From Tribonema minus (lineage: Eukaryota; Sar; Xanthophyceae; Tribonematales; Tribonemataceae), in assembly GCA_017506865.1 (NCBI GenBank), contig JAFCMP010000301.1, forward strand, positions 974,084-1,038,083: 64,000 nucleotides of DNA, written 5' to 3'. Position 1 is the first letter of the stretch, and each line of letters begins with the position of its first letter. Below are positions 10,884-36,184 of the stretch, piece after piece. A model generated the notes under the pieces. That model saw nothing but the letters and a program-made list of their open reading frames with translations. It was not told the origin of the DNA and did no database searches. A program made the translations under genes and the position numbers.

Positions 10884-13800
10884 ATGCAGCAACTGCCTCA
10901 TCTGTCCCAGCAGTGCCCCATCAGCTGTGCCATGCACACCCAGTACGTCGCCAGCACAGGAGGTGTTGTAAAGAAGAGGTCCGCAGACAGCAGCGTTGCT
11001 GGCATGGGGCTGCTGGCAGCTCGCCAGGTCGCCAATGGTCTCTCAGCGTTTGTGGCGGCAACGGCACCTCACCTAGAGGCTGCCGCCAGCTCTACAGCAA
11101 CCATATTCAGCTGGCTTGCAAAATATGACGCGGAATTGCTGCAGCACTTGGGACTGCCAGGGGTACCTGAGGGGGTTGCTGGGATGTCGGTGGAGGCCGT
11201 GGCTGAGGCGGCGAGGCTCTTGAGGTTCAATGCGTCAAGCGCTGGAGGTGAGCTGGAACGCACAAGTGACTGTAACAGTTACACTCTGTGAACACTTGGC
11301 GAAGTTGGCATCACAGGCATGCTACCCGTGGGTGTTGTTAACCGGTGGCACGCTGGAGACACTTGTGCAGCGGGCGTGATGGTTCGTCTGTGCTGGCAGA
11401 CTGAGTGTATAGCAGTGCAGGCATCTTATCGTAACTTGTCGCAGAACTGAAGCACATCATGTCCAACTGATCTTTTGCAGTGGGCTTCAACTGGACCAGG
11501 TGCAAGTGTGCAGTTGAGTCTGCACACATGCCAGCAATGCTGCTCTTGGAACAACATCGCAAGCACTTGAAGTTGACCGTGCCTTCTGCTGAACTGGCTT
11601 GCACTTGAACTTGAAGTTCAACTGCGATCCGCTTCGCTCGTGTTATGTAGCAGTCGCATTTGAAGTTGAGGTTTGAGTGTCCTCTCACGATCGGTTCGGC
11701 GGCAGCAGCAGTGGAGGCGCTGACTTCTCTCCGTTTAATAGTCAGCAGACTCACACGATCGTTGCACGTATGCCACCAACTTGCTGTGGCAGTCGGGGAC
11801 TTTGAGGCTTGACTGCGTTCCTGGTTGCGACCTCTGGTGCGTCACCTCTCAGTCGACAGGCTGCCGCCGCTGCTGCTGCTGGGGCGCGCGCGGCTCCTGG
11901 CGCTGACACGGTGCGCTGCCGCTGCCTCTGCCGCTTTTTGCGCCACTGCTGCGACAGGCCTCGAGTCGACGTGGTGTGAGGGCGCCATCATTGCCCCAGA
12001 ACACCTGGACAAACTGCGCAGCAGCATCGTGCCGGAGGTCGCCAAGACAGTGGAGGGGCTGCGCAACCTGCAGCTGGACCACGCGTTGAAGGAGCACGGC
12101 GGGTACACTCTGTCCCTGCCTGACGGGCGGGGCGGGGGGGGCAGAGTGCTCGCGACGGCAACGACGTACAATGCCGTCATGGCCGCCGCGAACGCCGGGC
12201 TGGGGGAGGGTGTCTTCGCCAGCCACCACGCCAAACGCCGGGGTGAGTCACCTGGCGTTCGCAGTGGCGTACGCAGGCGCAGCATCTGCGCCGATCCACT
12301 GCGCGCCCGTGCCCCTCTACATTGAAGTTGAAGTTAGTGTGTGCGTGCGTACGTGCTCTGCAGTGCAAGCGTGGTCGGTGGTGTGCATGCGCAGGTGCAG
12401 GGTGATGGCGGCGGCGGCGGCGCTCAAGCACAGGGTTAACGGCCAAGCGCAAGGCAGGGCGCAGTGGCGTCAAGTTGAAGTTGTGTGTAGTTGGGGGATT
12501 GCATCTGAGCTGTCTGGCACGCATCACTCACGCGTACGCAGGCGCAGCATCTGCGCCGTGATCACTGACAGGTCGCACTTGAGGTTTGTGTACCAGGTGC
12601 GCAGCATCTCTTTGTGTATGTAGGAGTTGAAGTTGGAGTTAGGTGGCCCTTATATCTCGATCTGCACCTTGCTCAGCGCTGTTGCGCGCCATCTGCAGCA
12701 GCGCTCAACACGCGCTGTCGCCAGGCGTATGCTGTGGCAGTCGGGGACTTTGAGGCTTGACTGCGTTCCTGGTTGCGACCTCTGGTGCGTCACCTCTCAG
12801 TCGACAGGCTGCCGCCGCTGCTGCTGCTGGGGCGCGCGCGGCTCCTGGCGCTGACACGGTGCGCTGCCGCTGCCTCTGCCGCTTTTTGCGCCACTGCTGC
12901 GACAGGCCTCGAGTCGACGTGGTGTGAGGGCGCCATCATCGCCCCAGAACACCTGGACAAACTGCGCAGCAGCATCGTGCCGGAGGTCGCCAAGACAGTG
13001 GAGGGGCTGCGCAACCTGCAGCTGGACCACGCGCTGAAGGAGCACGGCGGGTACACTCTGTCCCTGCCTGACGGGCGGGGCGGGGGGGGCAGAGTGCTCG
13101 CGACGGCAACGGCGTACAATGCCGTCATGGCCGCCGCGAACGCCGGGCTGGGGGAGGGTGTCTTCGCCAGCCACCACGCCAAACGCCGGGGTGAGTCACC
13201 TGGCGTTCGCAGTGGCGTACGCAGGCGCAGCATCTGCGCCGATCCACTGCGCGCCCGTCCCCCTCTACATTGAAGTTGAAGTTAGTGTGTGCGTGCGTAC
13301 GTGCTCTGCAGTGCAAGCGTGGTCGGTGGTGTGCATGCGCAGGTGCAGGGTGATGGCGGCAGCGGCGGCGCTCAGGCACAGGGTTAACGGCCAAGCGCAA
13401 GGCAGGGCGCAGTGGCGTCAAGTTGAAGTTGTGTGTAGTTGGGGGATTGCATCTGAGCTGTCTGGCACGCATCACTCACCATGGGCTGCGCTCAACTTTG
13501 CTCACCCCACACTCGCACCCTTGCTCTGTGGGCGCAGTGAACACCTGGTATGAGGAGCTGCCGGACGGCAGCAAGGTCAAGCACACCGAGGGCGGGCTTC
13601 TGTCAAAGGTGAAGTGTGGCAGCGGCAAAGTGGCAGATTGCATTTGTAGCATTGTGGCATTGCGTTCATGCACATGGTGTATTTGCAAGCTTGGTGGCGG
13701 ATCAAGTTGAAGTTTACACAGTGAAGGTTTTGGTGCTAGCCTTACAAGGAACTCACTTATTGCAAGTACTTCAAGTTGACATGCCTCTTGCTGACGACTG

Positions 13801-16709
13801 GACACACAGCGTAAAAACTAAGTGCAGCAGCTGGTGCATGCACGCGCACGTGAACTGCTTGAAGCCATGGCACGCGTTTCACATGGTCGGCTTGCTGAGC
13901 AGCTGCAGCAGCAGCAGCGGCGCTCAACATGTGTAGGTGCTCATGTCCCAGCTCGGGCTCTTGGTGCCTGATACCAGCCATTTGAAGCGTGCGCAGAGAC
14001 GAGTCTGCGCATGGAACCAAAGTGACTGGCTGAAGTTCACGTACTGAGTTTCTTGTGGCAAGAGTTTTATCATGCTGTGATTATCAGACTATTACCATGT
14101 CACCAGCTAAGGGTTATCATTAGCCTAAGGGTTGGCTAGCTCGCACGCACAGGGTTAACGGCCAAGCGCAAGGCAGGGCGCAGTGGCGTCAAGTTAAAGT
14201 TGTGTGCAGTTGGGGGATTGCATCTGAGCTGTCTGGCACGCATCACTCACCATGGGCTGCGCTCAACTTTGCTCACCCCACACTCGCACCCTTGCTCTGT
14301 GGGCGCAGTGAACATCTGGTATGAGGAGCTGCCGGACGGCAGCAAGGTCAAGCACACCGAGGGCGGGGCTTCTGTCAAAGGTGAGGTGTGGCAGCGGCAA
14401 AGTGGCAGATTGCATTTGTAGCATTGTGGCATCGCGTTCATGCACATGGTGTATTTGCAAGCTTGGTAGCGGATCAAGTTGAAGTTTACACAGTGAAGGT
14501 TTTGGTGCTAGCATTACAAGGAACTCACTTATTGCAAGTACTTCAAGTTGACATGCCTCTTGCTGACGACTGGGCACACAGCGTACAAACTAAGTGCAGC
14601 AGCTGGTGCATGCGCGCGCACGTGAACTGCTTGAAGCCATGGCACGCGTTTCACATGGTCGGCTTGCTGAGCAGCTGCAGCAGCAGCAGCGGCGCTCAAC
14701 ATGTGTAGGTGCTCATGTCCCAGCTCGGGCTCTTGGTGCCTGATACCAGCCATTTGAAGCGTGCGCAGAGACGAGTCTGCGCATGGAACCAAAGTGACTG
14801 GCTGAAGTTGACGTACTGAGTTTCTTGTGGCATGTGTTTTATCATGCTGTGATTATCAGACCATTACCATGTCACCAGCTAAGGGTTATCATTAGCCTAA
14901 GGGTTGGCTAGCTCGCACGCACAGGGTTAACGGCCAAGCGCAAGGCAGGGCGCAGTGGCGTCAAGTTGAAGTTGTGTGTAGTTGGGGGATTGCATCTGAG
15001 CTGTCTGGCACGCATCACTCACCATGGGTTGCGCTCAACTTTGCTCACCCCACACTCGCACCCTTGCTCTGTGGGCGCAGTGAACATCTGGTATGAGGAG
15101 CTGCCGGACGGCAGCAAGGTCAAGCACACCGAGGGCGGGGCTTCTGTCAAAGGTGAGGTGTGGCAGCGGCAAAGTGGCAGATTGCATTTGTAGCATTGTG
15201 GCATTGCGTTCATGCACATGGTGTATTTGCAAGCTTGGTAGCGGATCAAGTTGAAGTTTACACAGTGAAGGTTTTGGTGCTAGCATTACATGGAACTCAC
15301 TTATTGCAAGTACTTCAAGTTGACATGCCTCTTGCTGACGACTGGGCACACAGCGTACAAACTATGTGCAGCAGCTGGTGCATGCACGCGCACGTGAACT
15401 GCTTGAAGCCATGGCACGCGTTTCACATGGTCGGCTTGCTGAGCAGCTGCAGCAGCAGCAGCGGCACTCAACATGTGTAGGTGCTCATGTCCCAGCTCGG
15501 GCTCTTGGTGCCTGATACCAGCCATTTGAAGCGTGCGCAGAGACGAGTCTGCGCATGGAACCAAAGTGACTGGCTGAAGTTCACGTACTGAGTTTCTTGT
15601 GGCAAGTGTTTTATCATGCTGTGATTATCAGACCATTACCATGTCACCAGCTAAGGCTTATCATTAGCCTAAGGGTTGGCTAACCCCCAAGCCCTGACCC
15701 ATCATGGAGGTAACACACGTGCGCCTGCACCCATGCTGATGCCACTTTCCGACTTGTCCAGGCAAGGCTGGCGTACAAGTTCAAGGGGTGCAGCGAGGAC
15801 CTCGAGCTGTGGGCCACAACCCACCGCCTGAAGGGGGGGGGGGGTCCCTTCATCTGTATGCAGAAGAAAAAGCTGGTTCAAGTGGCGCTGGATTTCCACC
15901 TCTGCAGCACCTCGGGGGTGCAGCACATGACGAAGCCTCGGTTGTTGGGGATGTCGAGGGCCTCCGAGAAGCACTTTGAGGAGTTTGGCGGCGGTGGCAG
16001 CGTCAGCGGCAGCGGCGGCAGCAGCAGCAGCAGCGGCGTCAGCGGCAGCAGCAGCGGCGGATCGCCATCACACGCCGAGCACTGCTGCGAATTGACTGAG
16101 GACGGCCACCATGATGCGGAGTGCCACGTCGGCGATGGCGGCGGCGGCGGCGGCAGCGGCGGCGGCACCGGCAGCGGCGGCGGCAGCGGCGGCGGCAGCG
16201 GCAGCAGCATCGGCGGCAGCAGCAGCAGCAGCGGCGGCGGCAGCGGCGGCGACGCCGCGGGCATGCTGCTGGTGGAGATGCAGCAGCTGAATGAGGCGCC
16301 GGAGCAGCGGCAGCGCGACGCGCACACGCAGCGCCAGCGCCAGCTGCTCGACTTCATGCAGCAGCAGCAGCAGCAGAGGCTAAGCGTGGGCAGCAGCGGC
16401 ATGTCGCCAGCCTCGATGGCGCTGGCGGCAGCAGCGCCGGCGCCGGCGGCAGCAGCGGCGTCGCCGGCGCTGCTGCCGCCTGCGCCGCCCATGGAGGCGG
16501 CGGTGGCGAAGCCGGCGGCGGCGCAGCAGGCGAACACGGACATCGCGCGGCGCGCGGAGGCGCTGCAGCACTACATTGCCAGGTTTGCGCGGCTGCGTGA
16601 GTTGCGCAACGACATGGCGCGCGAGGGCCTGACGGATGCGCACTACGAGGTTGTGTATGTGGAGGCGCAGCTGCGCTCCGTGCGGCTGAAGATCTGCGAG
16701 CGCTCGTGA
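10884..16709 (+). CDS. Unknown multi-exon protein with Gly/Ser/Ala-rich C-terminus
   Basis: Reconstructed exons: 10,884-11,247; 11,958-12,242; 12,906-13,190; 13,538-13,608; 15,762-16,709. Phases agree at every join and total 651 codons with the stop. The first exon has a helical Ala/Leu region (STATIFSWLAKYDAELLQHL). The duplicated exon encodes ESTWCEGAIIAPEHLDKLRS...; the short exon encodes WYEELPDGSKVKHTEGG; the last begins ARLAYKFKGCSEDLELWATT, passes through a 12-G run in frame, continues QKKKLVQVALDFH, then a Gly/Ser-rich linker, a Gln/Ala-rich segment, and a helical end with RRAEALQHYIARFARLRELR before TGA. No family is recognised. Two extra copies of the short exon (14,309-14,380 and 15,081-15,152) would shift the frame and are probably skipped. 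The start codon and any upstream exons are uncertain. Confidence 0.55.
11782..13478 (+). repeat. Tandem duplication of an exon (about 948-bp spacing, 2 copies)
   Basis: 11,782-12,530 and 12,730-13,478 are near-identical copies carrying a 285-bp exon with phase-1 ends on both sides, so either or both can be included without changing frame. The two exons differ at three positions: two silent changes and one Thr-to-Ala in the TYNAVMAA segment. Flanking intron sequence, including acceptor and donor, is duplicated too. About 200 bp of unrelated sequence separates the copies. Confidence 0.85.
13378..15690 (+). repeat. Tandem triplication of a short exon and introns (about 772-bp unit)
   Basis: Three units start at about 13,379, 14,150 and 14,922 with more than 95% identity. 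Each holds a 71-72 bp exon between CGCAG and GTGA. The first exon copy (13,538-13,608) has GGGCGGGC and ends in phase 0, matching the phase-0 last exon. The second and third (14,309-14,380; 15,081-15,152) have GGGCGGGGC, one extra G, and end in phase 1. Each unit also holds the 3' acceptor region of the next intron and the GTTAACGGCCAAGCGCAAGG word. The start of the unit is also present in the upstream duplication (12,431), so the two tandem events overlap. Confidence 0.85.
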
Positions 16710-24737: not shown

Positions 24738-27700
24738 ATGGGGGATGCGTTGGAGGAGCCGTGCATCAGGTCGGCGCACCTCATCAAGTGCCATCGTGGA
24801 GTCTCGAAGCTCTACAACCGCAAGCATGGCCAGTTTGTCGTGCTCACCCATGTGGAGCTGCGCTGGAGCAATGATGAGGCGAGCGACGGTGCTGGCTATC
24901 ACCGAGGTCAGTGACCTGCGAGTAGTGTCGCTTCCGCTGCCGCGGTGCTCGGCAACCTTCGAGTGGTTTTTGCGCGTGGCATTCACACAGTGGCTGATGG
25001 CATCATCAGTACATCAGGAAGCAGGCTTCCATCTGTTGAGTCCGAGAAGCATACGATCAGCGCTCGGCAGACTTCACCCCACTAGGTCCAACACCAGGTG
25101 CAGCAACAGGCATCCACACTTTCACACAACACGCACAGACCCACCCCCCCCTTCCCCCCCTGAACCCCCCCCCCCCCCATACTGCAGGCAGCTGCCACTT
25201 GCTCAACGTCTCCGGCGTGCGCCTCTCGGAGTCCCACCCCGACCGCTTCCACGTTACCCTCGAGGCGGACGGCCGCTCGCGCGTGTGGCGCGCCGAAACC
25301 GCCGACGACGCCCAGGAGTGGGTAACTGCCATCCAGGCGGCGATCGCGGCGGTGCGCAAGCGCGCCTCGGAGGACGGTGCTGAAGATGACAAGGCGCTGG
25401 ACTGTCTGGAGAAAGTGGGGGGCGCGGGGGGCGTCGCAGAGCCGGTGACGAACGCCGCAACCGCGCTGTGGGGCGAGCCCATCGACGTGGGGGTGGTGCG
25501 CGAGGGCGAGACGCTGCGCTGCAGGTATGTATGTATGTATGGTGCGCGTGTGCATTTCCATGTTGCGTTGTAGTGCGTTGTACTTGAAGTACCACTTAGT
25601 TAATTGTCGCTCGGGCACCAGGCTGAGGTGCGTGCACTGTTGTTGCTATTGATTGTCGCCAAGGGCGCATAACCCTCTGTCTGTGCGCGCGGTGAGGGTG
25701 ACGCTGCGGCGTGACGCTGAGCACTGCCACCATGCCCGCAGGCAACCCTTGGGACGTCGAGTTTATGTACTGCAAGAGTGTACCGTTGCCTACTGTGATG
25801 TCAAGGTATGCTTGACTCGAGACGTGACACGACGACCAGTGAATGTGCACACACGTCATGAGCGAATAGGGTAGCATGGCGCCGAGCGCTGCCACCAGGC
25901 TGTGGAGGAACCCATAAATGTCATACTGGTGCACGCTGCCAGCTAAATGTACCGTGTTTAAAAGTACATGATGCACCGTACAAAGCACACTTTCCAGTGT
26001 TGAAGTATTAGTTTATGAGGTATAGGCAGCACCAGAATTGCATGCACTGCGCACAAGGATGCAAAGCCGTGGACATCTTGCGAGCTGTCACTGTGTCATG
26101 CAGTGATGCGCCGCCCGTCAGTGTGTGAGTGACGCGCCCTACGGTTACGAAGCGTGTACCGCGTGTCGATGTGAGAAGCCACAGCAAGACAGTCAGTGCG
26201 CTGCTGCAGTTTTGTGCACTTGCTTGGCGATTGAGGCATTACCGATGCTAGGGGCGTGTCTGCTTAAAGCGCCGGAGAACAGTGTGCCAATCGCAAACTT
26301 CAAAGTATGTGGTGTGTGTGCTGGTGCAGCAGCCAGCATCCAGCGCATTTGCCATTGTGGTTGCATGCCAGCAGCACCGCAACAGGCCACCAGCAGAGAC
26401 AGAGATGAAGCAAGCTTGCTGCGGACTTTTTTCCCTGCTGGACCAGGAGCCTTGTGAGCACTGCGAGTCATCCTGTTACGCTTGAAATGGCAGCATGCAC
26501 CTTTTGCTGGGTCACAGTCTCATGCCAATCTTGCCATATGTCTGTCGATGTATATCACATTTGACAAACACCTGGTCACTCTACACCTCGAGGGGTGTCC
26601 CCATAGCACGACAGCGCTGCTGTGACGATCCGTGCATACGTGCCTACGCGCCAAAGCAGCACTTGCTTGCCCCCCCCTCCCCCCCTCCTCCCCCCCTCGC
26701 ATGGTCAGCCCGCCCCTGCATTGCGCTCACGCACATTGCGACGGACGTCCTCACGATCTCAGCCTGTCGACCTCGCCGCCCAGCCCCCATCACCACGCAG
26801 CAGCTCACACCAACGCACCATACCCATACCCTGCGTCAGCGCGCCCCCGCACTCCACAGCACTGCCACATGCGCGTGCGTTAAGACAGGGGCACTTCCAA
26901 CTGTACCACAAGAGGTGGCAGGTTGCACACGTTCCGGTCAGACTCTCTCAGCTGCCTCACATGCACCCTACCTCACCGCTCGCGACAACGCACCGTGCCC
27001 ACACCCTGCCCATACCATTCCCTGCCCATACCGATACCCTGCGGCAGCGCGCCCCCCTCACACCTGAGCGCTGCCACTACACACGCGTGCACTCGCACGC
27101 AGGCCCCGCGACGGCGGTGTCGTGCTCCTGCACCTTGCTTGAGCACAATTCGACGCATGCACTCGCCATTCCTGTCCAGCTCGCCCAGCCCCCCAACACC
27201 ACGTAGCAGCCCCTGACAACTTGTACTTCTACTACCCTACGGCAGCGCGCCCTCCCTCACACCTGAGCACTGCCACATACACACGCGCGCACGCGCGCAG
27301 GCTGCGCGACGGCGGCGTCGTCACCATCACGCGCGCGCACCTCAGCTCATGACAACGCACCATTCATGTGACCCGGCCTGTCAAGCTTACCCGGCGATGC
27401 AGCAGCTCATAACAACGCACCACATGACCCTGTCCCTGAAACCTGAGCACTGCCACTTCACACGCGTGCAGGCTGCGCGACGGCGGCGTCGTGGTCATAA
27501 CGCGCGCGCACCTGGAGAGGAGCGCCGTGCGCGTCCCCGTCTCCTACCCCGCCCCCCGCCCCCCCGGCCAGGTTCAAGTCACCGCCGCCTACACCACCCC
27601 CGCGCAGCACCGCCGCCCCGCCTCCCCCCAGTCCAGCGCCGGCAGCAGCAGCAGCGGCGGCGGCGGCAGCAGCCTCTTCTTCCCAAGTCCTGGCGGCAGC

Positions 27701-27992
27701 GCTACCGCTGTCAGTGTGCCTGCGGCAGCGCGGAACAACCTCAACTTGAAGTACCTGCTGGTGGCGGACGGCGCGGCGCGCGTCGCGGCGGCGGCGCTGT
27801 GCGCGGGCGCGCTCCTGGCGAGCGAGCCGGCGTGGCTGCCGGCGCTGCTACTGCGTGCCACCATCATGGGCCCGCACCCGCGCGGCTACGCGCCGCCCGC
27901 GCTCTCCGCGCCCGCCGCCGCCGCGCTCGCCGTCGCCGCCGCCGCCACCGCCGTCGTCCTCGCCGCGCTGCAGCTGTACCTGCGCAGCGCGA

Positions 27993-28023
<31 letters not shown>

Positions 28024-31000
28024 GGCGGGCGGCGCCAAGCCCGTGGCGGCGGCGGCGGCAGCGGCGGTCAGCAGCAGCGGCGGCGGCGGCGGCAGCGCGC
28101 AGCACGTGCGGCGCGCGTCGCACGCGCCGTCGCCGCTGTCGGAGTGGGTGATCACGCTGCAGCGCGCGGAGGAGGCGGACGCCGCGGCGGCGGCGGCGGC
28201 GCGGCCGCAGTCGCCGCAGATGTCGTGCGGCTCGCTGGCGAGCCTCGCGACGGTGGACCTGCTGGACGCGAGCAGCAGGAGCGGTGTTGTGCCAGGTATG
28301 TATTTATGCATGTATGTAAGGTACAGCGGGCCGGTCGCTTAGGGTTAGGGCTGGAGCTTCAAGCCAGGTGTGTATGCCTACCGAACACGTGAGACCTTTC
28401 CATACTGAACACCCATGCCTTGAACGCAAAAAAAAGCTTCCACACAGAAGTCTTTTTGACCATGTGGATACGGTGGAACTGCTGGACGTGAGCAGCAGGA
28501 GTGGCGTCGCGCCAGGTATGTATGTATGTATGTATGCATGGTTCAGCGGGCCGGTGACCAGGTATGTATGTATGTATGAATGTATGTAGGGTACAGCGGG
28601 CTAGCCGCCTTAGGGTTGTGTGTATGCATTAATGTAGGGTACAGCGGGCTAGCCGCTTAGGACTAGGCTAGCGCTTGGAGTGCGTCAGCGGTGCACGCGC
28701 CGCAGGGACTTTGTGCAGGGGGGCGGGCGAGTACGGTGAAATGGCTGCTGAAGTCGGGGTCTGAAACGATGCGTGCCTACCGCAGGCTCGTGGATGTTAG
28801 TATAACGTGCTCTTTTGACTTTGGCATGCAGTTGTTGACACATACCTTGAATGTAACACGGTCTTGTGCACTCGCTCGCGTTTTGCGCTGCGAGCGGCGG
28901 CAGGCGCTCGTCGCTTAGGCATTCATTGTACCGAACACCCGTGCACTGAAGCATGAGGTCTCGTGACCTTTAATCTTCAAATTGAAGTTGAACCCACCAC
29001 AGCGTGCTGCCGTTCGTCGCATCCCCCATATCAAGTAATTTGATCTCGAACTCACCAGAGTTGCCTTTTGTTAGTCACATTTTGCATAGCAGGCGGCGGC
29101 AGGCGCGCATCGGTGAGGAACTGTTGTTGATGCGATTGCCGATTTTCAAGTTGAACTCACGACAGCGTGCTTCCGTTCATCGCAATCCGCATAGCAGGTG
29201 GCAGCAGGCGCGCATCTTACCGAAGCCTCTTGCACCAAACCATGCATCTTCAACAGTTGTGCGAACGCTGTGATCTGATCTCGAACTCACAACGCGTGCT
29301 TTCATTTGTCGCATTCCACATAGCAGGCGGCGGCAGGCGCGCATCGGTGAGGCGCGCCTCGGCAGCGGGCACCGCCGCAGCGGGCGCTGCTGCTGCGCCC
29401 CCCGCGTTCACTGCCGACGACATCAACGAGGGGGACGTGCCTGTGCGCTACCTAAAGGGATGCAAGGGCGACATGGCAGAGGTATCAATTTTGAGCTGCA
29501 GTGGTTGTATTCAGATATTTGTGGAAGTACTGTGGTGCACGCCGAGCGCAATGAGGCGTCAAATTCAACTGGCAACTGCAAATGTAAGGTGGCCTGGGTC
29601 ACATGAGGAGCACTTGCTTGTGCGCTACATCAAGGGCTGCAAGGGCAACATGGCAGAGGTATCGCCTTTGAGCAGTAGTAGTTGTGTGTGAATATTTTGG
29701 CAGCGCTGTACTTGTATGCGAGAAGGATGAGGCGCCCCGTTTCAACTGTCCACGTCAACCGCAAGGCATGCTCAGGACTGCGGCAAAGTTACATAATCGT
29801 CAGGCTAGGGAAGGGTAGCTTGCACAGCATATGCTGGACTATAAATGCTCAGATAAGCTCGATTTGATGAAGCTTTGAGTCCTACTTCACCCATGTCCCT
29901 GTACTGCAAAACTGCTACCTCATTGCTGCCAGAGGCAACAGGGTACCGTGCGGCGCTGCTGTCATTGCGCTGGTGCCATACTCCTGCAGCACCCATATGC
30001 CCACCTTCACCTATGGGGCAGGGTTGCCAAAATCGTACCTTTTTTACAAATATACTCCGTAAATCGTACCGTAATTTGACCGTAACTCCTGCCTATTGAG
30101 GTTTTGGAGAACTTCGATACCATTTTTGCGTCTGGCACAGTAAGCCCAAAGATAAACGTTAGGGCACCCGAAGCTGTGGTCAAGATCAGCATGGTTTACG
30201 CTACAAATACCGTTGACCGTATTTTTTCAATAATACCGTTTTGGCAACCCTACGGCTATGGCATCTAGCACATGATACTGGCACACACTACTGACCAAAA
30301 GCAGATGCTTCACCATGCATCTGCCAGTGTTCCTTCCTTCAACTACTTGTAAAGGGCAGCGCTTGACGCCACTGTAGCTGCTGGTTTATCTCCTTCCAAT
30401 TGCTTGTTGACAACAGCTTTATATATTTGGTGCCACTGCTGCAGGCCAAACGGCGCTACGCGGGGACGCTGTACCTGCCGTTTTTACTTCCTCCACTTCC
30501 ATGTCAATAAACTGCCCTTTTCCTGTTCTTGGCGCTACTGGTGCAGGCCAAGCGGCGCTACGCGGCGACGCTCTCGTGGCGCAAGGCTGAGGGCATTGAC
30601 TCCATACTGGCGCAGCCGCAGCCGCACTTTGACCTCATCAAGCGACACTACCCGCACTTCTACTGCGCGCGCGCCAAGAGCGGCAACCTTGTCTACTGTG
30701 AGTAATCAGCTAACCCCAACCCTATCCCTGACCCTAGCCTAACCCTAACCCTACTGTGAGTGGTGACTGGCATGTCGCGGTGGCCTTTGCTGGTCCCCAT
30801 TCAAGTATGAAAACGAATCCAAAGATCGTAGAGCTTCAGGTGACAAGGGATGGTTAGCCGCAGTTGCCTTCCACCAATAATCATGGTCGCCGCTGCTGCA
30901 TCAATTGGCCACGAGTCAAACAGTACCACCATATCCACAGTAGTCAAAAAGACTTATGTGTGCAAGCTTTTAGCGTTCGAGGCATCCTTTATGTATTCTT

Positions 31001-34000
31001 AGTGCACTGTGCTGACTGCGTAGCTCACAGTTAACTGTTCAAGAAAAACAAAAGCTGACCAGTAGTCTAGCGTTTGCTTGTTAAGCTTAGCTGTGGTGCA
31101 CACGTGCGTGTGGTACCATACTGAGGCGAATTAGGCATTGCGGGCGCGTGGGTGCGAGGAAGCAGACAGAAGGATGTCGCGCTGACGGCAATTTTGTCCA
31201 GTACATCCGTGCGCCCAGATTTGCCACTGTGTACGCCCATCAGCCGCAACAGCGTTGCGCTTTGGTATTCAAACTGTCAGTTTGTGCACTGGTGTCCCTA
31301 CAGACGAGCGTGCGGGGGGCGTTGACATGAAGGCCCTCCTGGGGGGCGGCGTTGAGATGTCTAGGGTTGTTGTTAGGACCCAACTCGACACTGACATTGT
31401 AATGTGGTTTGTTCACCTTTGCACCACGATTTTCAAGCAAAACTCAAGTTCGAGTATACGCCATGACTCATGTGGTTGCAGACGAGCGCGTAGGGGGTGT
31501 TGACATGAAGGCCCTCCTGGGGGGCGGTGTGGAGATGTCTGGGGTTGTTGTCATGGCCCAAAGTTGACATTGACATATTGACATATACTGTGGTATGTCA
31601 CCCACCCCCCCTCGACCACCGTCTTCAAGCAAATCTCAGATCTGAGCACTTCCTGACATCTGTGTGCTTGTGCACTGATGTCACTTTAGATGAGCGCGTA
31701 GGGGGTGTTGACATGAAGGCCCTCCTCGGGGGTGGTGTGGAGATGTCTGAGATGGTGCGCTACTACGTCTTCCAGACCGAGTTCCTGTGGAAGGTTCTCG
31801 ACACACGCGAGGACGACGGCAAGCTCATCACCGTCTTTGACATTGCGGGCTGCAGGTGAGAATATTCATATACCTCTACATCTTATAGAGCATTGCCTAG
31901 GTGATGCACTTCAGCAAAGACATGATGTGAATGAAAGCGTTGTGCTGCCTGCACTGCAACGATCGCACTGCAACAAGTACGTGAGCACCTGTACAAAGGT
32001 GTTCAACGTCTTCGACAGTGAGCACCTGTGGAAGTAGGGCTGCAGGTGATAATACAAGCATTGCATTGATGCCAGGCACGTCAGCAAAGACATGCTGTGC
32101 AACGCAGTGTAATTGGTGTTTTCTGGCATATAGAAGATCAAATTCAAGGCAAGATGCAAGATGAGAGCTGGAGCTGGTAAGCTGTGCGAGAATAGTGACA
32201 AGTCGTGAATAGTACAAAAAAGACATAGCCATGAAGAATATAGGCATGGACAGGAGCATGCCTCAGCTGCCTGCCACATACGCAATGCAAGCACTACCTC
32301 CTGTCGCGTAAAAGCCATGGCAAGCTTGCCGCCCTGCTGAGCAATTGGGTGTCACACTTCCCTAATTTCAACTCCTTGTCACACATCTATCTCATGTCAC
32401 CCCCTCCCCTCCCAAATGCTTACATGCTTACGCTACGCAGCTGGCGCAATGCCTTTGGCTGATCTCTGTATTGAACTCTTGCAAACTGCAGGTGAGGTGT
32501 ATACAGTTGATCACTGGTGAGAACAAGAACTGGCGTGGGGGGTGTCACAGTCCCTGACTTCAACTCATAGCCCCTTGATGGCGACGTCAGCGCCTGTCGC
32601 CGCATCGCACGCTTGCAGGTGCCGCGGCCCTCGCCAGCCAACAAAAAGTGCCAGTTTGAGCTGCTCCCCTACAAGTGAGGCATGAACTTCAAGCGCCGAC
32701 CCACCGGCCCGCCCGTAGATATAGTAATCGCAAAGCCCGTTCATCGTGTGCTCAGCCCATGCGGTCCAGGACATAACGTACAACTTTAACTCTTTGCAAG
32801 CCCCTCACTAACTTCAACTCTTATCACATCAATAACCCCCTCATATCACCCCTACCAATGCTCACCCTGCGCAGCTTCCGTGATGCAGCCCCTAATGAAC
32901 TTCCACATTCATCACATCAATCCCCCCTCATCTTATCACACTCAATGCTTACATGCCTACCCTGCGCAGCTTCCGCGATGCCTTTGGCGATGCCATGGGG
33001 TTCATCAAGCAGGCCAGTGCCACAGCGGGCCAGCACTACCCGGAGAGGTGTCAGGTACAAAGCGCAAACCCTACATGAATTCAACCGTAATCTAACCCTA
33101 ATTCAATATGTATACATTGCCACACGCAGTAAAGGCAACAAAGCTTGCACACAGAAGTCTTTCTGACTACTGTGGATATGGTGGCACTGTCTGACTCGTG
33201 GCCAATGACTGCAGCAGCGGCGACCACGGTCAGTGGTGGAAGGCACTTGCGGCTAACCAATCCTTGTCACCTAGAGCTCTACGATATTTGAATTCGGGCC
33301 CATGAAGCGCACACCCTAATTCCAACCCCTATCTAACCCTTATTCAAGTAGCACCCGCGGAGAGGCGTCAGGTAAGCAGCGCAAACCCTAACCCTAACTC
33401 TAGCCCATGTGGGACTTGCACAGCGACAACCCTACCATGTACAGTGTGCCAGTACCATGCAGTGTCGTCCCGACAGCATGCACCAAGGGGAGGCAAGAGC
33501 TGCTGCTACAGTTGCAGACGCCAGGGCTGTTGCAGTACACTGCATTTATCGTAATGTGAAAGCAATGATCAACCAGTTCGCTTGTAACTGCAGTAATGCA
33601 AGGCGCGCAACTGCTCACCGCAATTTGTTAGGCGTACACGTGTGCGACCGCAGCTTACTTGCGGCCGCAGAAGTGCTGCTGGTATCCCTATGTTCTTGGG
33701 CATGACTGAAGTGACATCACATGTACGGTAGCAGGCAAGCGTCTCTGAGTAAATAGCACTCTTTCATCAACACGTTCTGCACTGCGTTCTCTGTGCCATG
33801 TACCCTGATGTTGCAATCCCAGAACCCCGGACTCATTGCACCTTCAACGTCAATACTTCACGTGCCCCCTCAAAGCCAAACGTCGATACAAACGGTCAGT
33901 GATGGACGCCTTCTGCGGCTAACCACACCTTGTCACCTGGGGCTCTACGGTCTTTTGATTCGTTTCCATGAACGTGCGCCCCCCTCCGCCCCTCCGCTCA

Positions 34001-36184
34001 GATGATCATCATCGCCAACGTCCCCTCCTGCCTTGAACTGCCTTCTTGCCATGTACCCTGATATTGCAACTCAGTCAACCCAAACTCATAGCACCCTCAA
34101 CGCCAATACTCCACGCGCCCCCCAATATCTCACGTCGGTGTAAAACATGCCCCCCCCCCCCACCCCACCCCCCCCTCCCCCCTCAGATGATCATTATCCC
34201 CAACGTCCTCTCCTAGTTCAACGTAGCAACTCAGAAATCCTGCACTCATCGCACCCTCAACGCCAATGTTTCACCTACCTCCCCAAGTCCAAGCATCGGT
34301 ATAACCATGCGCCGCCCCCCCCCCCCTCCCCCCTCCCCTCAGATGATCATCATCGCCAACGTCCCCTCCTGGTTCAACGCGCTGTGGAAGGCCATCAAGC
34401 CCTTCATAGACCCCGCCACGCTCGACAAGATCAAGATACTCAAGTCGGGCGCCATATTTGCGGAGCTCGCGCAGCACGTGGATGCCGCTAACATCCCCAC
34501 TGAGTATGGCGGCACGTGCTTGTGGCCTGGGGACTTTGGCGACGAGGGACCGGGATCCTGCAGGTATGTACTTGATCAACTCTCGGTTGAGGATGAAAAA
34601 CAAAATTTGCAGTCAATGTACACATGTGCTGTGTCAATCAAGCAGGTATGTACATGGCAATTCTGAAACGTTGCATGTTTTGCCATCGGCACACACGGCA
34701 TATGGGCTCTCATTTACGCTGGTCGATGCCCCCATACCAACGCTTGCTGTGGAAAACGCGCATCCATATCAGAAGCAACGCCTGGTCTTGCCGCTGTGAA
34801 AGTTTGAAACTCTTTGGCGGAGCTCAACCGCAAAATGATTGATGTCACCCGCGGCACCACCATCAGCATCAGCGCTCAGACACGAGCAGCACCCACCATA
34901 TCCAGTCCCGTGTCATACACTTCTAAACCCAGTCTCTTGGCCTGCACCTCTCACGCTCACTTGCTTTGCTGCAGCACCCGCATCAGCATTAGCGCTCAAA
35001 CTTCAACAGCACCAATGAGATTCAGTCGTAGAAGTATGTGTTCCCTACCCCTCTCACGCTTTTACGCCTTTCTGTAAACGATGCGACGCGCGCGCCGCAG
35101 GTGGAACTCTCCGCAGGAAGTTCAACTCCGCCAGTTCGTGGACGAGCTCAACCGCAAGACTACTACCGCCGCCACCTCCGCCGCTGACGCCACCAGCTTC
35201 GGCGCTCTCACGCAGCCGCAATCGCCCGTAACGCCGCTCTCCATTGCGTCGCCGCCGCCGCTGGTGAGTTCCGCAGCGGCGGCAACGCCTGCTGCGGGCG
35301 GTGGCAGCAGGGGCAAGCCGGCGGCGCACAGCGGGGGGTCGCGGTCGCTCGTGGGGGACAGGGGCGCGGGGCTGCGCGCGCTGCAGGTGCGGTTGACGCG
35401 CCACACAGAACTTCAAGAAGGCATTGAACTTCGAGAACGTATGCAGACACGCATAGTATTCAGCGACACGCTTGCTCACAGGGAGGTTTTCTCAGCAGCA
35501 GCCGCTGAGAGCGAGCACAATGTCCTGTCTCGATGCGTGCAAATAACAGGGGCGCGGGGCTGCGCGCGCTGCAGGTGCGGGGGTTGACGTGCCACATTGA
35601 ACCTCAAGAAGGCATGGAACTTCAAGAAGAACACATGTAGCAACACGCGGAACTGTGAGAAAAGCGTCTGTAGCGACGCGCAAATTCAGCAATGCGTCTG
35701 TAGCGGCACGCATTTACAGCAACGCGCACGTTCAGGAAGGCTCTCTGCCGCAGCTAAAGTGTACGCGCTTGGTGGCTGCAGCTGCGCGATGCGATACTGT
35801 CTCATGTGTGAGCGTCCTCGACGTGCGCAGATCATCTGCTCGCGCGCAGGTCAAGTGTGCTCAGAGGACCATATGCGACAGACTGGCCAACCGCCAGTCG
35901 CGGAATCTTTAGTTTCACATGCTTCACCCGACCCTGGTGAAGGTGATTGATCACCACGTTTGCGGCATCGTGGGGGCAGCGCGCACCTACACTGAGCAAC
36001 TTCAAACCGTCGCTATGCGCCGCTGCTTTGCGCGCAGGTCTCGGACGACGAGCTTAGCCCCTCGGGCATCACATCGCGCCCCCCCAAGCACACCAAGGCG
36101 GCGGCCAGCGCCACAAGCAAGCGCCGCTCGCTGAACCAGCAGCACGTCTCAACGTTGTCGTCCGCATCCACCGCGGCCATGTGA
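24738..36184 (+). CDS. PH-domain plus CRAL-TRIO (Sec14-like) lipid-binding protein, ten exons
   Basis: Exons: 24,738-24,906; 25,188-25,524; 27,472-28,295; 29,327-29,481; 30,547-30,697; 31,690-31,855; 32,970-33,054; 34,343-34,563; 35,101-35,386; 36,038-36,184. All phases agree: 847 codons with the stop. Exons 1-2 give a PH domain (HLIKCHRGVSKLYNRKHGQFVVLTH... to AQEWVTAIQAAIAAV, ending in the expected Trp helix). Exon 3 is Ala/Ser-rich with two hydrophobic segments that may be membrane helices (around ALLLRATIMG and AVVLAALQLYL). Exons 4-8 give the CRAL-TRIO fold: YLKGCKGDMAEAKRRYAATLSWRKAEGID, HYPHFYCARAKSGN, LITVFDIAG, IIIANVPSWFNALWKAIKPF, IPTEYGGTC. Such proteins bind or exchange phosphoinositides or other lipids at membranes. 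Exons 9-10 are a low-complexity basic tail. The ligand cannot be read from sequence. Confidence 0.85.
27060..27520 (+). repeat. Triplicated acceptor and start of exon 3 (PH/Sec14 gene)
   Basis: A block containing ACCTGAGCxCTGCCAC, an ACACGCG(T/C)GC tract, CAG and GC(T)GCGCGACGGCGGCGTCG occurs three times, with the putative acceptor before 27,102, 27,301 and 27,472. The second copy would translate like the real exon for about 14 residues and then reach a stop. Only the third copy continues into the full exon. Confidence 0.75.
28243..28640 (+). repeat. Duplicated end of exon 3 with donor, plus TATG repeats
   Basis: The last about 50 bases of exon 3 (ending 28,295; GGAC(C)TGCTGGACGxGAGCAGCAGGAG region) and the GTATGTAT donor are repeated with changes, ending at 28,515. 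Both donors run into (TATG)n tracts, and a third and fourth TATGTATG block follow with GTACAGCGGGCTAGCCG at 28,594 and 28,637. Confidence 0.75.
29060..29345 (+). repeat. Triplicated acceptor and start of exon 4
   Basis: CATAGCAG followed by GCGGCGGCAGGCGCGCATC occurs with coding start at 29,093, 29,198 (slightly changed) and 29,327 (the real exon). Upstream TCGAACTCAC words are repeated as well, so the unit is about 105-130 bp. Confidence 0.75.
29590..29690 (+). repeat. Echo of exon 4 end and donor
   Basis: GTGCGCTACxTxAAGGGxTGCAAGGGC, then GACATGGCAGAG and GTATC, at the end of exon 4 (to 29,481) is repeated to 29,658 with synonymous-looking changes (Leu to Ile, Asp to Asn), including the donor and the following TTTGAGC words. 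Confidence 0.75.
30019..30252. mobile_element. Small hAT-type MITE in intron 4
   Basis: The termini CAGGGTTGCCAAAA (30,019-30,032) and TTTTGGCAACCCTA (30,239-30,252) are inverted repeats of classic hAT form, and the subterminal regions share ACCGTA/TACGGT words. The length is about 234 bp with no coding capacity. No clean 8-bp target duplication is seen, although CTATGG occurs on both sides. It lies in an intron of the PH/Sec14 gene. Confidence 0.7.
30430..30570 (+). repeat. Echo of exon 5 acceptor and start
   Basis: GCGCTACTGGTGCAG-GCCAAGCGGCGCTACGCG at the real exon start (30,547) is preceded by a diverged copy, GCCACTGCTGCAG-GCCAAACGGCGCTACGCG, starting at 30,445. The upstream copy loses similarity after about 25 coding bases. 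Confidence 0.75.
31290..31760 (+). repeat. Triplicated acceptor and start of exon 6
   Basis: Three copies begin at 31,304, 31,482 and 31,690, each with AG then A(C/T)GAGCGxGxxGGGGG and TTGACATGAAGGCCCTCCT, encoding the same YERxGGVDMKALLGGGVEMS. They keep the frame for about 20 residues before the first two run into stops. TTGACATTGACAT-like words follow the first two. Only the third reaches the GCAG|GTGAGA donor at 31,855. Confidence 0.85.
32425..33005 (+). repeat. Triplicated acceptor and start of exon 7
   Basis: CTACGCAG-CTGGCGCAATGCCTTTGGC (32,441), CTGCGCAG-CTTCCGTGATGC (32,875) and CTGCGCAG-CTTCCGCGATGCCTTTGGC (32,970, real). The CACATCAATxxCCCCTCAT pyrimidine tract is duplicated between the last two. 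Confidence 0.8.
33030..33400 (+). repeat. Echo of exon 7 end and donor
   Basis: ACCCGGAGAGGTGTCAG-GTACAAAGCGCAAACCCTA at the exon 7 donor (33,054) is matched by CCGCGGAGAGGCGTCAG-GTAAGCAGCGCAAACCCTA ending at 33,371. Both are followed by CCCTAA-type repeats. The echo donor GTAAGC is closer to consensus than the real GTACAA. Confidence 0.75.
33985..34385 (+). repeat. Triplicated acceptor and start of exon 8
   Basis: Copies at 34,002, 34,187 and 34,343 each carry a C-rich tract, CTCAG, ATGATCATxATC and CCAACGTCC(C/T)CTCC. The first two diverge after the TCCT of the Pro-Ser codons. The third encodes IIIANVPSWFNALWK, the conserved CRAL-TRIO segment. Text such as CTTGAACTGC...CATGTACCCTGATxTTGCAA is repeated in the spacers too (33,790 and 34,030 regions). 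Confidence 0.85.
35363..35640 (+). repeat. Echo of exon 9 end and donor
   Basis: The last 24 bases of exon 9 (to 35,386), the donor and about 45 bp of intron (GTGCGG...GAACTTCAAGAAGGCATTGAAC) are repeated with the echo donor after 35,574. AGCAACACG-type words continue to about 35,720. Confidence 0.75.

Follow-up and report, generated by a model that had tools for sequence, protein, structure and literature searches.

The window analysed here is a stretch of 64,000 nucleotides from Tribonema minus, whose genome assembly comprises 158.2 Mb in 554 contigs. It contains a gene whose product is a CRAL-TRIO (Sec14-like) protein (Pfam PF00650, E = 2.2e-26). The best database match is an 842-aa Tribonema minus hypothetical protein, here termed P0001, with 99% identity over the full query. 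The introns of this gene hold copies of the edges of the adjacent exons, which we refer to as echoes. P0001 follows the exons downstream of the last copies, except that exon 6 starts 12 nt later. A two-strand hidden Markov gene finder written for this study placed exons 3, 4, 5, 7, 8 and 9 exactly and started exon 6 at 31,702. The exons are as follows.

27,472-28,295, plus strand: exon 3, real copy (P0001; gene finder)
29,327-29,481, plus strand: exon 4 (P0001; gene finder)
30,547-30,697, plus strand: exon 5 (P0001; gene finder)
31,690-31,855, plus strand: exon 6 from the acceptor given in the earlier note (P0001 and gene finder start at 31,702)
32,970-33,054, plus strand: exon 7 (P0001; gene finder)
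34,343-34,563, plus strand: exon 8 (P0001; gene finder)
35,101-35,386, plus strand: exon 9 (P0001; gene finder)
36,038-36,183, plus strand: last exon (P0001; gene finder ends 3 nt short)

Exon 6 has two in-frame acceptors 12 nt apart, at 31,690 and 31,702 (TTTAG and GCGTAG). The start at 31,702 fits P0001 and the gene finder, and the echoes align through the first acceptor. The gene finder also predicted a spurious exon after the last exon and called the echo at 31,482-31,526 an exon; echoes of this kind are thus a hazard for gene prediction. By reading of the deposited protein, no echo sequence was found within P0001.

Self-BLAST of the window and pairwise alignments recovered all of the repeats listed in the earlier note, at the acceptors of exons 3-8 and the donors of exons 3, 4, 7 and 9. 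One start position given there needs correction: the first exon-3 copy begins at 27,103 and not at 27,102. The statement that the last copy always leads into the full exon is correct, but true by definition. The echoes are as follows.

27,055-27,127, plus strand: exon-3 acceptor echo 1 (exon part 25 nt; pairwise alignment)
27,253-27,342, plus strand: exon-3 acceptor echo 2 (exon part 42 nt; self-BLAST and pairwise alignment)
28,470-28,555, plus strand: exon-3 end and donor echo (exon part 46 nt)
29,035-29,118, plus strand: exon-4 acceptor echo 1 (exon part 26 nt, identical)
29,153-29,216, plus strand: exon-4 acceptor echo 2 (pairwise alignment)
29,605-29,709, plus strand: exon-4 end and donor echo (exon part 54 nt)
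30,427-30,470, plus strand: exon-5 acceptor echo (spacing 102)
31,274-31,362, plus strand: exon-6 acceptor echo 1 (pairwise alignment)
31,480-31,541, plus strand: exon-6 acceptor echo 2 (pairwise alignment)
32,037-32,099, plus strand: exon-6 end and donor echo, diverged (GT at 32,046; absent from the earlier list)
32,415-32,459, plus strand: exon-7 acceptor echo 1 (pairwise alignment)
32,802-32,886, plus strand: exon-7 acceptor echo 2 (abutting tandem copy, spacing 88)
33,358-33,390, plus strand: exon-7 end and donor echo (self-BLAST and pairwise alignment)
33,979-34,030, plus strand: exon-8 acceptor echo 1 (pairwise alignment)
34,066-34,223, plus strand: exon-8 echo 2 unit (121 nt intron and 37 nt exon)
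35,546-35,628, plus strand: exon-9 end and donor echo (exon part 29 nt, identical)

The second exon-3 echo belongs to a tandem match of 27,035-27,342 with 27,233-27,513 (spacing 198), and the exon-8 unit is followed, after a gap of 2 nt, by the real copy at 34,226-34,379. Each edge (40 exon and 60 intron bases) was compared with the rest of the intron, with 60 edges of other genes as controls. A diverged intronic copy was present at 11 of the 16 edges tested (6/8 acceptors and 5/8 donors above all controls). The exon-6 donor echo scored 130, the highest of its controls 104. Controls were not exceeded at the donors of exons 2, 5 and 8 or the acceptors of exons 9 and 10; the exon-8 donor and exon-9 acceptor showed weak similarity in pairwise alignment, below the control threshold.

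The copies are contiguous, unspliced genomic units that consist of intron tail plus exon head or of exon end plus intron head. Clean tandem copies were seen for exons 7 and 8 and, running over more than one period, for exon 3 (315 columns at spacing 198) and exon 6 (271 columns at spacing 178); the full unit could be aligned for exons 3, 6 and 8. For exons 3, 6, 7 and 8, the copies are adjacent and unit length equals spacing. Edge-crossing alignments in the gene extended only 4-60 nt into the exon, and no echo was a full exon copy with both splice sites, as found in mutually exclusive exons. Dispersed copies, of the kind produced by introners or transposon-borne repeats, were not found for the two units tested. 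The stretch 31,274-31,480 had three matches in the 158-Mb genome, all in the exon-6 intron and exon. The exon-8 unit had 2 local matches and 5 matches of 35-43 bp on other contigs, the latter within its C-rich part; its one other genomic match longer than 43 bases was the real copy.

Two readings of these copies can be weighed at this point. The first takes the echoes for remnants of introns that arose when exon segments were duplicated (AGGT model); gain of introns by tandem duplication is itself accepted (PMC3443670, PMC4974935). However, the copies span the intron-exon boundary contiguously, and the intron therefore predates the duplication. P0001 fits a single intron, not two, at each echoed place of the CRAL-TRIO gene, where no new intron from duplication was found. 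This origin is very improbable here. In the second, the echoes are an artefact of assembly, which is hardly credible: the copies differ by 9-17% on average and carry indels at many separate places, and the same pattern occurs on other contigs.

Divergence was counted in 18 comparisons, of which 15 have both exon and intron bases and score above 28. Echo and real copy of the CRAL-TRIO gene differed at 47 of 515 exon-part positions (9.1%) and at 102 of 608 intron-part positions (16.8%). Where the echo is free and the exon constrained, the exon part is expected to show about half to two thirds of the divergence of the intron part, and ~50% of differences should fall at third codon positions. The exon-part differences by codon position were 10, 11 and 26; the third-position share (26/47) did not depart from the ~50% predicted for an echo under free drift and an exon that changes at its third positions alone (P = 0.56). 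The echoes thus diverge as expected for free copies next to constrained exons. In the two exon-6 echoes, 11 of 12 differences fell at third positions; coding selection on these echoes was considered and dropped, this bias being treated as an outlier because of the gene-wide share.

The genome was sampled in 254 kb, made up of the window and 19 stretches (190 kb) from 11 contigs, in which the gene finder predicted 32 genes and 172 introns. It also overlooks exons, and 50 predicted exons scoring below 8 were left out of the exon-end test and of every later analysis. The window carries a tandem array at 11,782-15,682 (771-bp period, ~98% identical) inside a predicted gene. The array gene was included in the 50-nt exon-end test, the local-pair counts and the first simulation and excluded from the coverage, cluster, later simulation, splice-score and 100-nt window tests.

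Local repeat pairs at distances of 40-800 bp numbered 204 direct and 10 inverted in the 254 kb, against none after dinucleotide shuffling; such direct, nearby copies are what small tandem duplications leave. Spacing was 60-260 bp in 126 of the 204 direct pairs. Their median aligned length was 0.44 of the spacing, which is expected after decay and is no proof of adjacency. Among 12 pairs with identity of at least 92% and length of at least 45, three had 3-15 bp between the copies, one overlapped by 2 bp, and eight did neither; these junctions are compatible with end joining and too few to decide. Local direct repeats took up 13% of intron bases. Outside the CRAL-TRIO gene, coverage was 0.11-0.15 in the 400 nt nearest to exons, compared with 0.059 deeper in introns and 0.051 in intergenic DNA, and introns at 200-400 nt from exons were ~2.7-fold denser in duplications than intergenic DNA (90% interval 1.6-4.8).

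In introns of 150-3,000 nt, the terminal 50 nt of exons matched their own intron at 7 acceptors and 8 donors (90 of each examined). The sample includes the CRAL-TRIO gene, which contributed 7 of these 15 matches; 1 lay in the 771-bp array. Unrelated exon ends gave 0/339 and 0/336 matches. These zeros, together with the shuffled sample (0 pairs vs 204), bear out the earlier view that the echoes do not arise by chance. In the same test, exon interiors gave 0/71, segments 50-100 nt into the exon 1/138, and intron interiors 11/136.

The genome-wide scan of exon edges proposed in the earlier note was run on the 254-kb sample. The 100-nt windows covered 74 of 92 introns, those below 300 nt and exons below 40 nt being excluded. 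Among 20 other genes, 33 of 132 edges were echoed (acceptors 19/66, donors 14/66 above all 60 controls), vs 48 of 279 regularly spaced windows of intron interior (P = 0.08). Edges and interiors showed no difference in introns shorter than 1,200 nt (24/90 vs 20/84, P = 0.73) and no significant one in longer introns (9/42 vs 28/195, P = 0.25); a smaller random draw of interiors gave 11/46 (P = 1.0 against 33/132). The edge tests disagree in strength, and we took the larger interior set (279) as the basis. When a score of 1.15 times the highest control was required, 11 of the 20 other genes had an echoed edge, and a second echo-rich gene (C51 g2) had 5 of 6 edges echoed. The CRAL-TRIO gene, which was picked for its echoes, exceeded the other genes (11/16 vs 33/132, P = 0.0007) and less clearly its own interiors (14/36, P = 0.07). 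A boundary hot-spot outside the CRAL-TRIO gene is not supported by these counts; a weak edge excess there is possible.

When local pairs were grouped into clusters, duplications spanning an intron-exon boundary, as in intron gain, were found in 10 of 13 clusters of the CRAL-TRIO gene and in 16 of 45 (36%) in other genes. Random shifting of clusters gave 1.7 or 2.9 expected for the CRAL-TRIO gene and 5.3 or 8.3 for the others; the excess in the other genes is less striking against simulations that include the slower decay of exon parts (25-32%), a bias that shifting ignores. The separate tandem units and clusters support the earlier claim of many independent events rather than one duplication. 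One edge cluster of the 26 is a pair of 84 identical bases, 6 bp apart, at L004 (6500-7000); the alignments to the five best-matching related loci cover a single copy of this unit. This locus belongs to a multi-copy gene family, probably mobile, with inverted copies of one segment nearby. We rejected the pair as a new-born echo on account of the multi-copy family, the lack of a Pfam match and the unproven exon model, and gave it no separate weight.

A process tied to splicing or transcription, such as reverse transcription of lariat intermediates or breaks at R-loops, might copy exon edges preferentially. The excess at CRAL-TRIO edges over interiors, the non-significant excess elsewhere (partly masked by overlooked exons), the higher duplication density within 400 nt of exons and the shallow exon parts of the echoes all point in this direction. 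However, edges and interiors show no difference in the introns shorter than 1,200 nt, where overlooked exons are less likely, and intergenic DNA also has local duplications (coverage 0.051). Edge contacts were nearly equal for donors (14) and acceptors (12); lariat intermediates carry the acceptor and downstream exon only, so this near-equality is evidence against them. No copy of a spliced exon-exon junction was found in 92 introns at the threshold used. Such a process is therefore distinctly unlikely, and two suggestions of the earlier note lose ground: splicing-tied mutation through these counts, and reverse-transcribed lariats through the reasoning that, in the splicing pathway, lariats cannot carry exon ends with donors. 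Exon-edge echoes are not special to the CRAL-TRIO gene and are not clearly tied to splicing.

A gene for casein kinase 2 alpha (CK2-alpha) in the sample provided an anchor independent of the gene finder, with exons fixed by homology; 303 residues align without gaps to chain 2pvh_A.

L015:6240-10000 and L016:1-1732, minus strand: CK2-alpha gene (homology to 2pvh_A)

It has three echoed edges, one donor and two acceptors. One acceptor echo lies at the acceptor preceding VLYPTLTDYD. At the donor after RYDHQ, the echo copies 59 exon bases; the last exon, which the gene finder overlooked, has ERLTAKQAMDHPYF in frame after AG, and the donor after RYDHQ is therefore supported. At the third edge, a second AG followed by ERLTAK lies 83 nt upstream, and the 20 exon bases that follow the AG are identical. 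Because the gene finder overlooked this exon, the last edge pair had been counted as intron interior; further overlooked exons would likewise hide an edge excess.

A neutral simulation placed uniform duplications on the sampled gene structures (CRAL-TRIO gene in, array gene out) and removed a duplication only when it fell within an exon or spanned an entire exon or intron. Simulated clusters touched an edge in 16% of cases at the lowest rate (24 clusters per replicate) and in 25-32% at three higher rates (46 to 140 clusters per replicate). The 16/45 of other genes did not differ significantly from these values (P = 0.08 vs 25%, 0.35 vs 32%). The 10/13 of the CRAL-TRIO gene did (P = 0.001 vs 0.319), the gene being one chosen for its echoes. 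By a hand count from the cluster lists, only 3 of 26 edge clusters extended more than 62 nt into the exon, vs 50-61% in the simulation (P ~2e-6 against 0.57). By reading, three deep copies were perhaps masked as exons by the gene finder; P was 7e-5 when they were counted. In the first simulation, edge coverage was below deep-intron coverage, opposite to the data. In the real genome, inserted elements may dilute the deep introns, and coverage beyond 400 nt resembles that of intergenic DNA. We think that selection against deep, exon-like copies, alongside this dilution, may explain the shallow depth and the density near exons. The CRAL-TRIO excess, the shallow exon parts, the higher coverage near exons, the mostly intact copied sites and a possible weak edge excess do not follow from the simple model and count against it.

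The splice sites carried by the echoes were compared with the real sites in 35 echoes. The mean change in site score was -0.33, whereas neutral decay predicts -1.27 (P = 0.0015). The change was +0.30 (expected -1.23) in 15 echoes of the CRAL-TRIO gene and -0.81 (expected -1.30, P = 0.14) in 20 echoes of other genes. Much of the effect comes from one exon-7 donor and from two copies at exon 6, where the real site is weak. AG/GT core bases had changed in 2 of 70 with exon 6 at 31,690 and in 3 of 70 with the annotated start, against ~5 expected from the mutability of CAG and GT in intron interiors (P = 0.12 for 2/70). The copied splice sites are mostly intact, with their conservation unproven. 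In 10 of 11 cases, splicing to an echo acceptor would introduce a stop or shift the frame, so that regular use would be costly; the second exon-4 echo, if used, would insert 43 codons without a stop.

These observations bear on the earlier suggestion of decoy sites that regulate splicing, under which retained echoes would compete with the real sites. In its favour, the copied sites keep much of their strength, above all in the CRAL-TRIO gene, and GT/AG is intact in nearly all copies. Against it, the core bases are not significantly better kept once mutability is controlled for, and the strength test leans on exon 6 and the exon-7 donor. The third-position share gives no sign of coding constraint on the echoes, P0001 as read is free of them, and use of their acceptors is mostly disruptive. 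Decoy function is accordingly quite improbable. A composite reading seems unlikely too, if somewhat less so: that edges are copied preferentially, that near-equal sites are tolerated or kept with site choice set elsewhere, and that the echoes are live competitors that tune splicing as well as a main route of intron growth.

The reading that we prefer, with a probability of roughly three in four, is that tandem duplications arise along the whole genome and that those crossing a boundary survive, the extra copy becoming intron. The copies are local, direct and contiguous across the boundary, occur in other genes, are nearly as frequent in intron interiors, and have diverged as expected; the CRAL-TRIO gene is an extreme case of a pattern present in many sampled genes. 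Direct orientation, adjacency and the lack of spliced junctions are consistent with tandem duplication through break repair or slippage, the most likely molecular cause. Short direct tandem duplications would arise from repair of DNA breaks or from replication slippage. Wholly exonic ones would mostly break the protein and be purged, and intronic ones would be free to persist. A duplication crossing an acceptor would leave two copies of the intron tail with its exon head; use of the downstream acceptor would restore the normal mRNA, and the upstream copy would turn into intron. A duplication crossing a donor would be the mirror image. Boundary-crossing duplications would thus survive because one working boundary remains, and we infer that RNA uses only the last acceptor or first donor. 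Repeated rounds would lengthen the intron and produce two or three echoes, and the echoes would afterwards decay as intron sequence. The earlier idea of intron growth is thereby upheld, as a by-product of tandem duplication.

The closest known case is in potato, in which intron gain is described as arising from tandem duplication that spans an intron-exon boundary (PMC4974935). As in Tribonema, the unit takes in the 3′ part of the intron together with the 5′ part of the exon that follows, with splice signals copied along, and the potato gene also shows a purely intronic 83-bp tandem duplication. In potato, however, the outcome is a new intron plus an inserted exonic piece, whereas in Tribonema the whole extra copy lies within an existing, lengthened intron, and echoes recur at many edges in many sampled genes. 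PMC3443670 reviews tandem duplication of exon segments as a real mechanism of intron gain. Small tandem duplications from break repair, through CST/Pol alpha-primase fill-in and end joining, are described in PMC8355091. They are likewise short, direct, tandem and common in genomes; that work concerns small-overhang breaks in human and mouse cells, and Tribonema spacings are often longer. Introners are a source of intronic repeats in some eukaryotes (PMC9860276); they are dispersed, whereas the exon-6 echo unit is local.

Intragenic duplications that cross exon-intron boundaries have reportedly been studied with emphasis on new introns; the Tribonema case is one of intron lengthening. No description of exon-edge echoes in Tribonema was found among the literature titles and abstracts surveyed. 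Two things set Tribonema apart from known cases: the outcome, a lengthened intron that retains leftover splice sites, and how often this is seen among the sampled genes of this one genome. If about a quarter of edges have a nearby copy, often with a similar site score, the alga offers a natural experiment on how the spliceosome chooses sites, and another on intron lengthening via tandem duplication.

Repeats of other kinds were seen as well. Repeats of 81 bp (27 codons) occur at L010:4715-5405, in predicted exons, and at L011:1952-2830; the former probably represent repeat proteins rather than echoes, and the latter may do so too. The introns of the CRAL-TRIO gene also contain a dispersed 157-bp element at 33,140-33,296, inverted at 30,814-30,970, with parts at 33,892-33,972 and 28,432-28,460. 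Forty of 1,924 candidate genomic sites were scored, its own among them, and all 40 matched with at least 91% identity. By its appearance, the element represents a short interspersed or MITE-like family.
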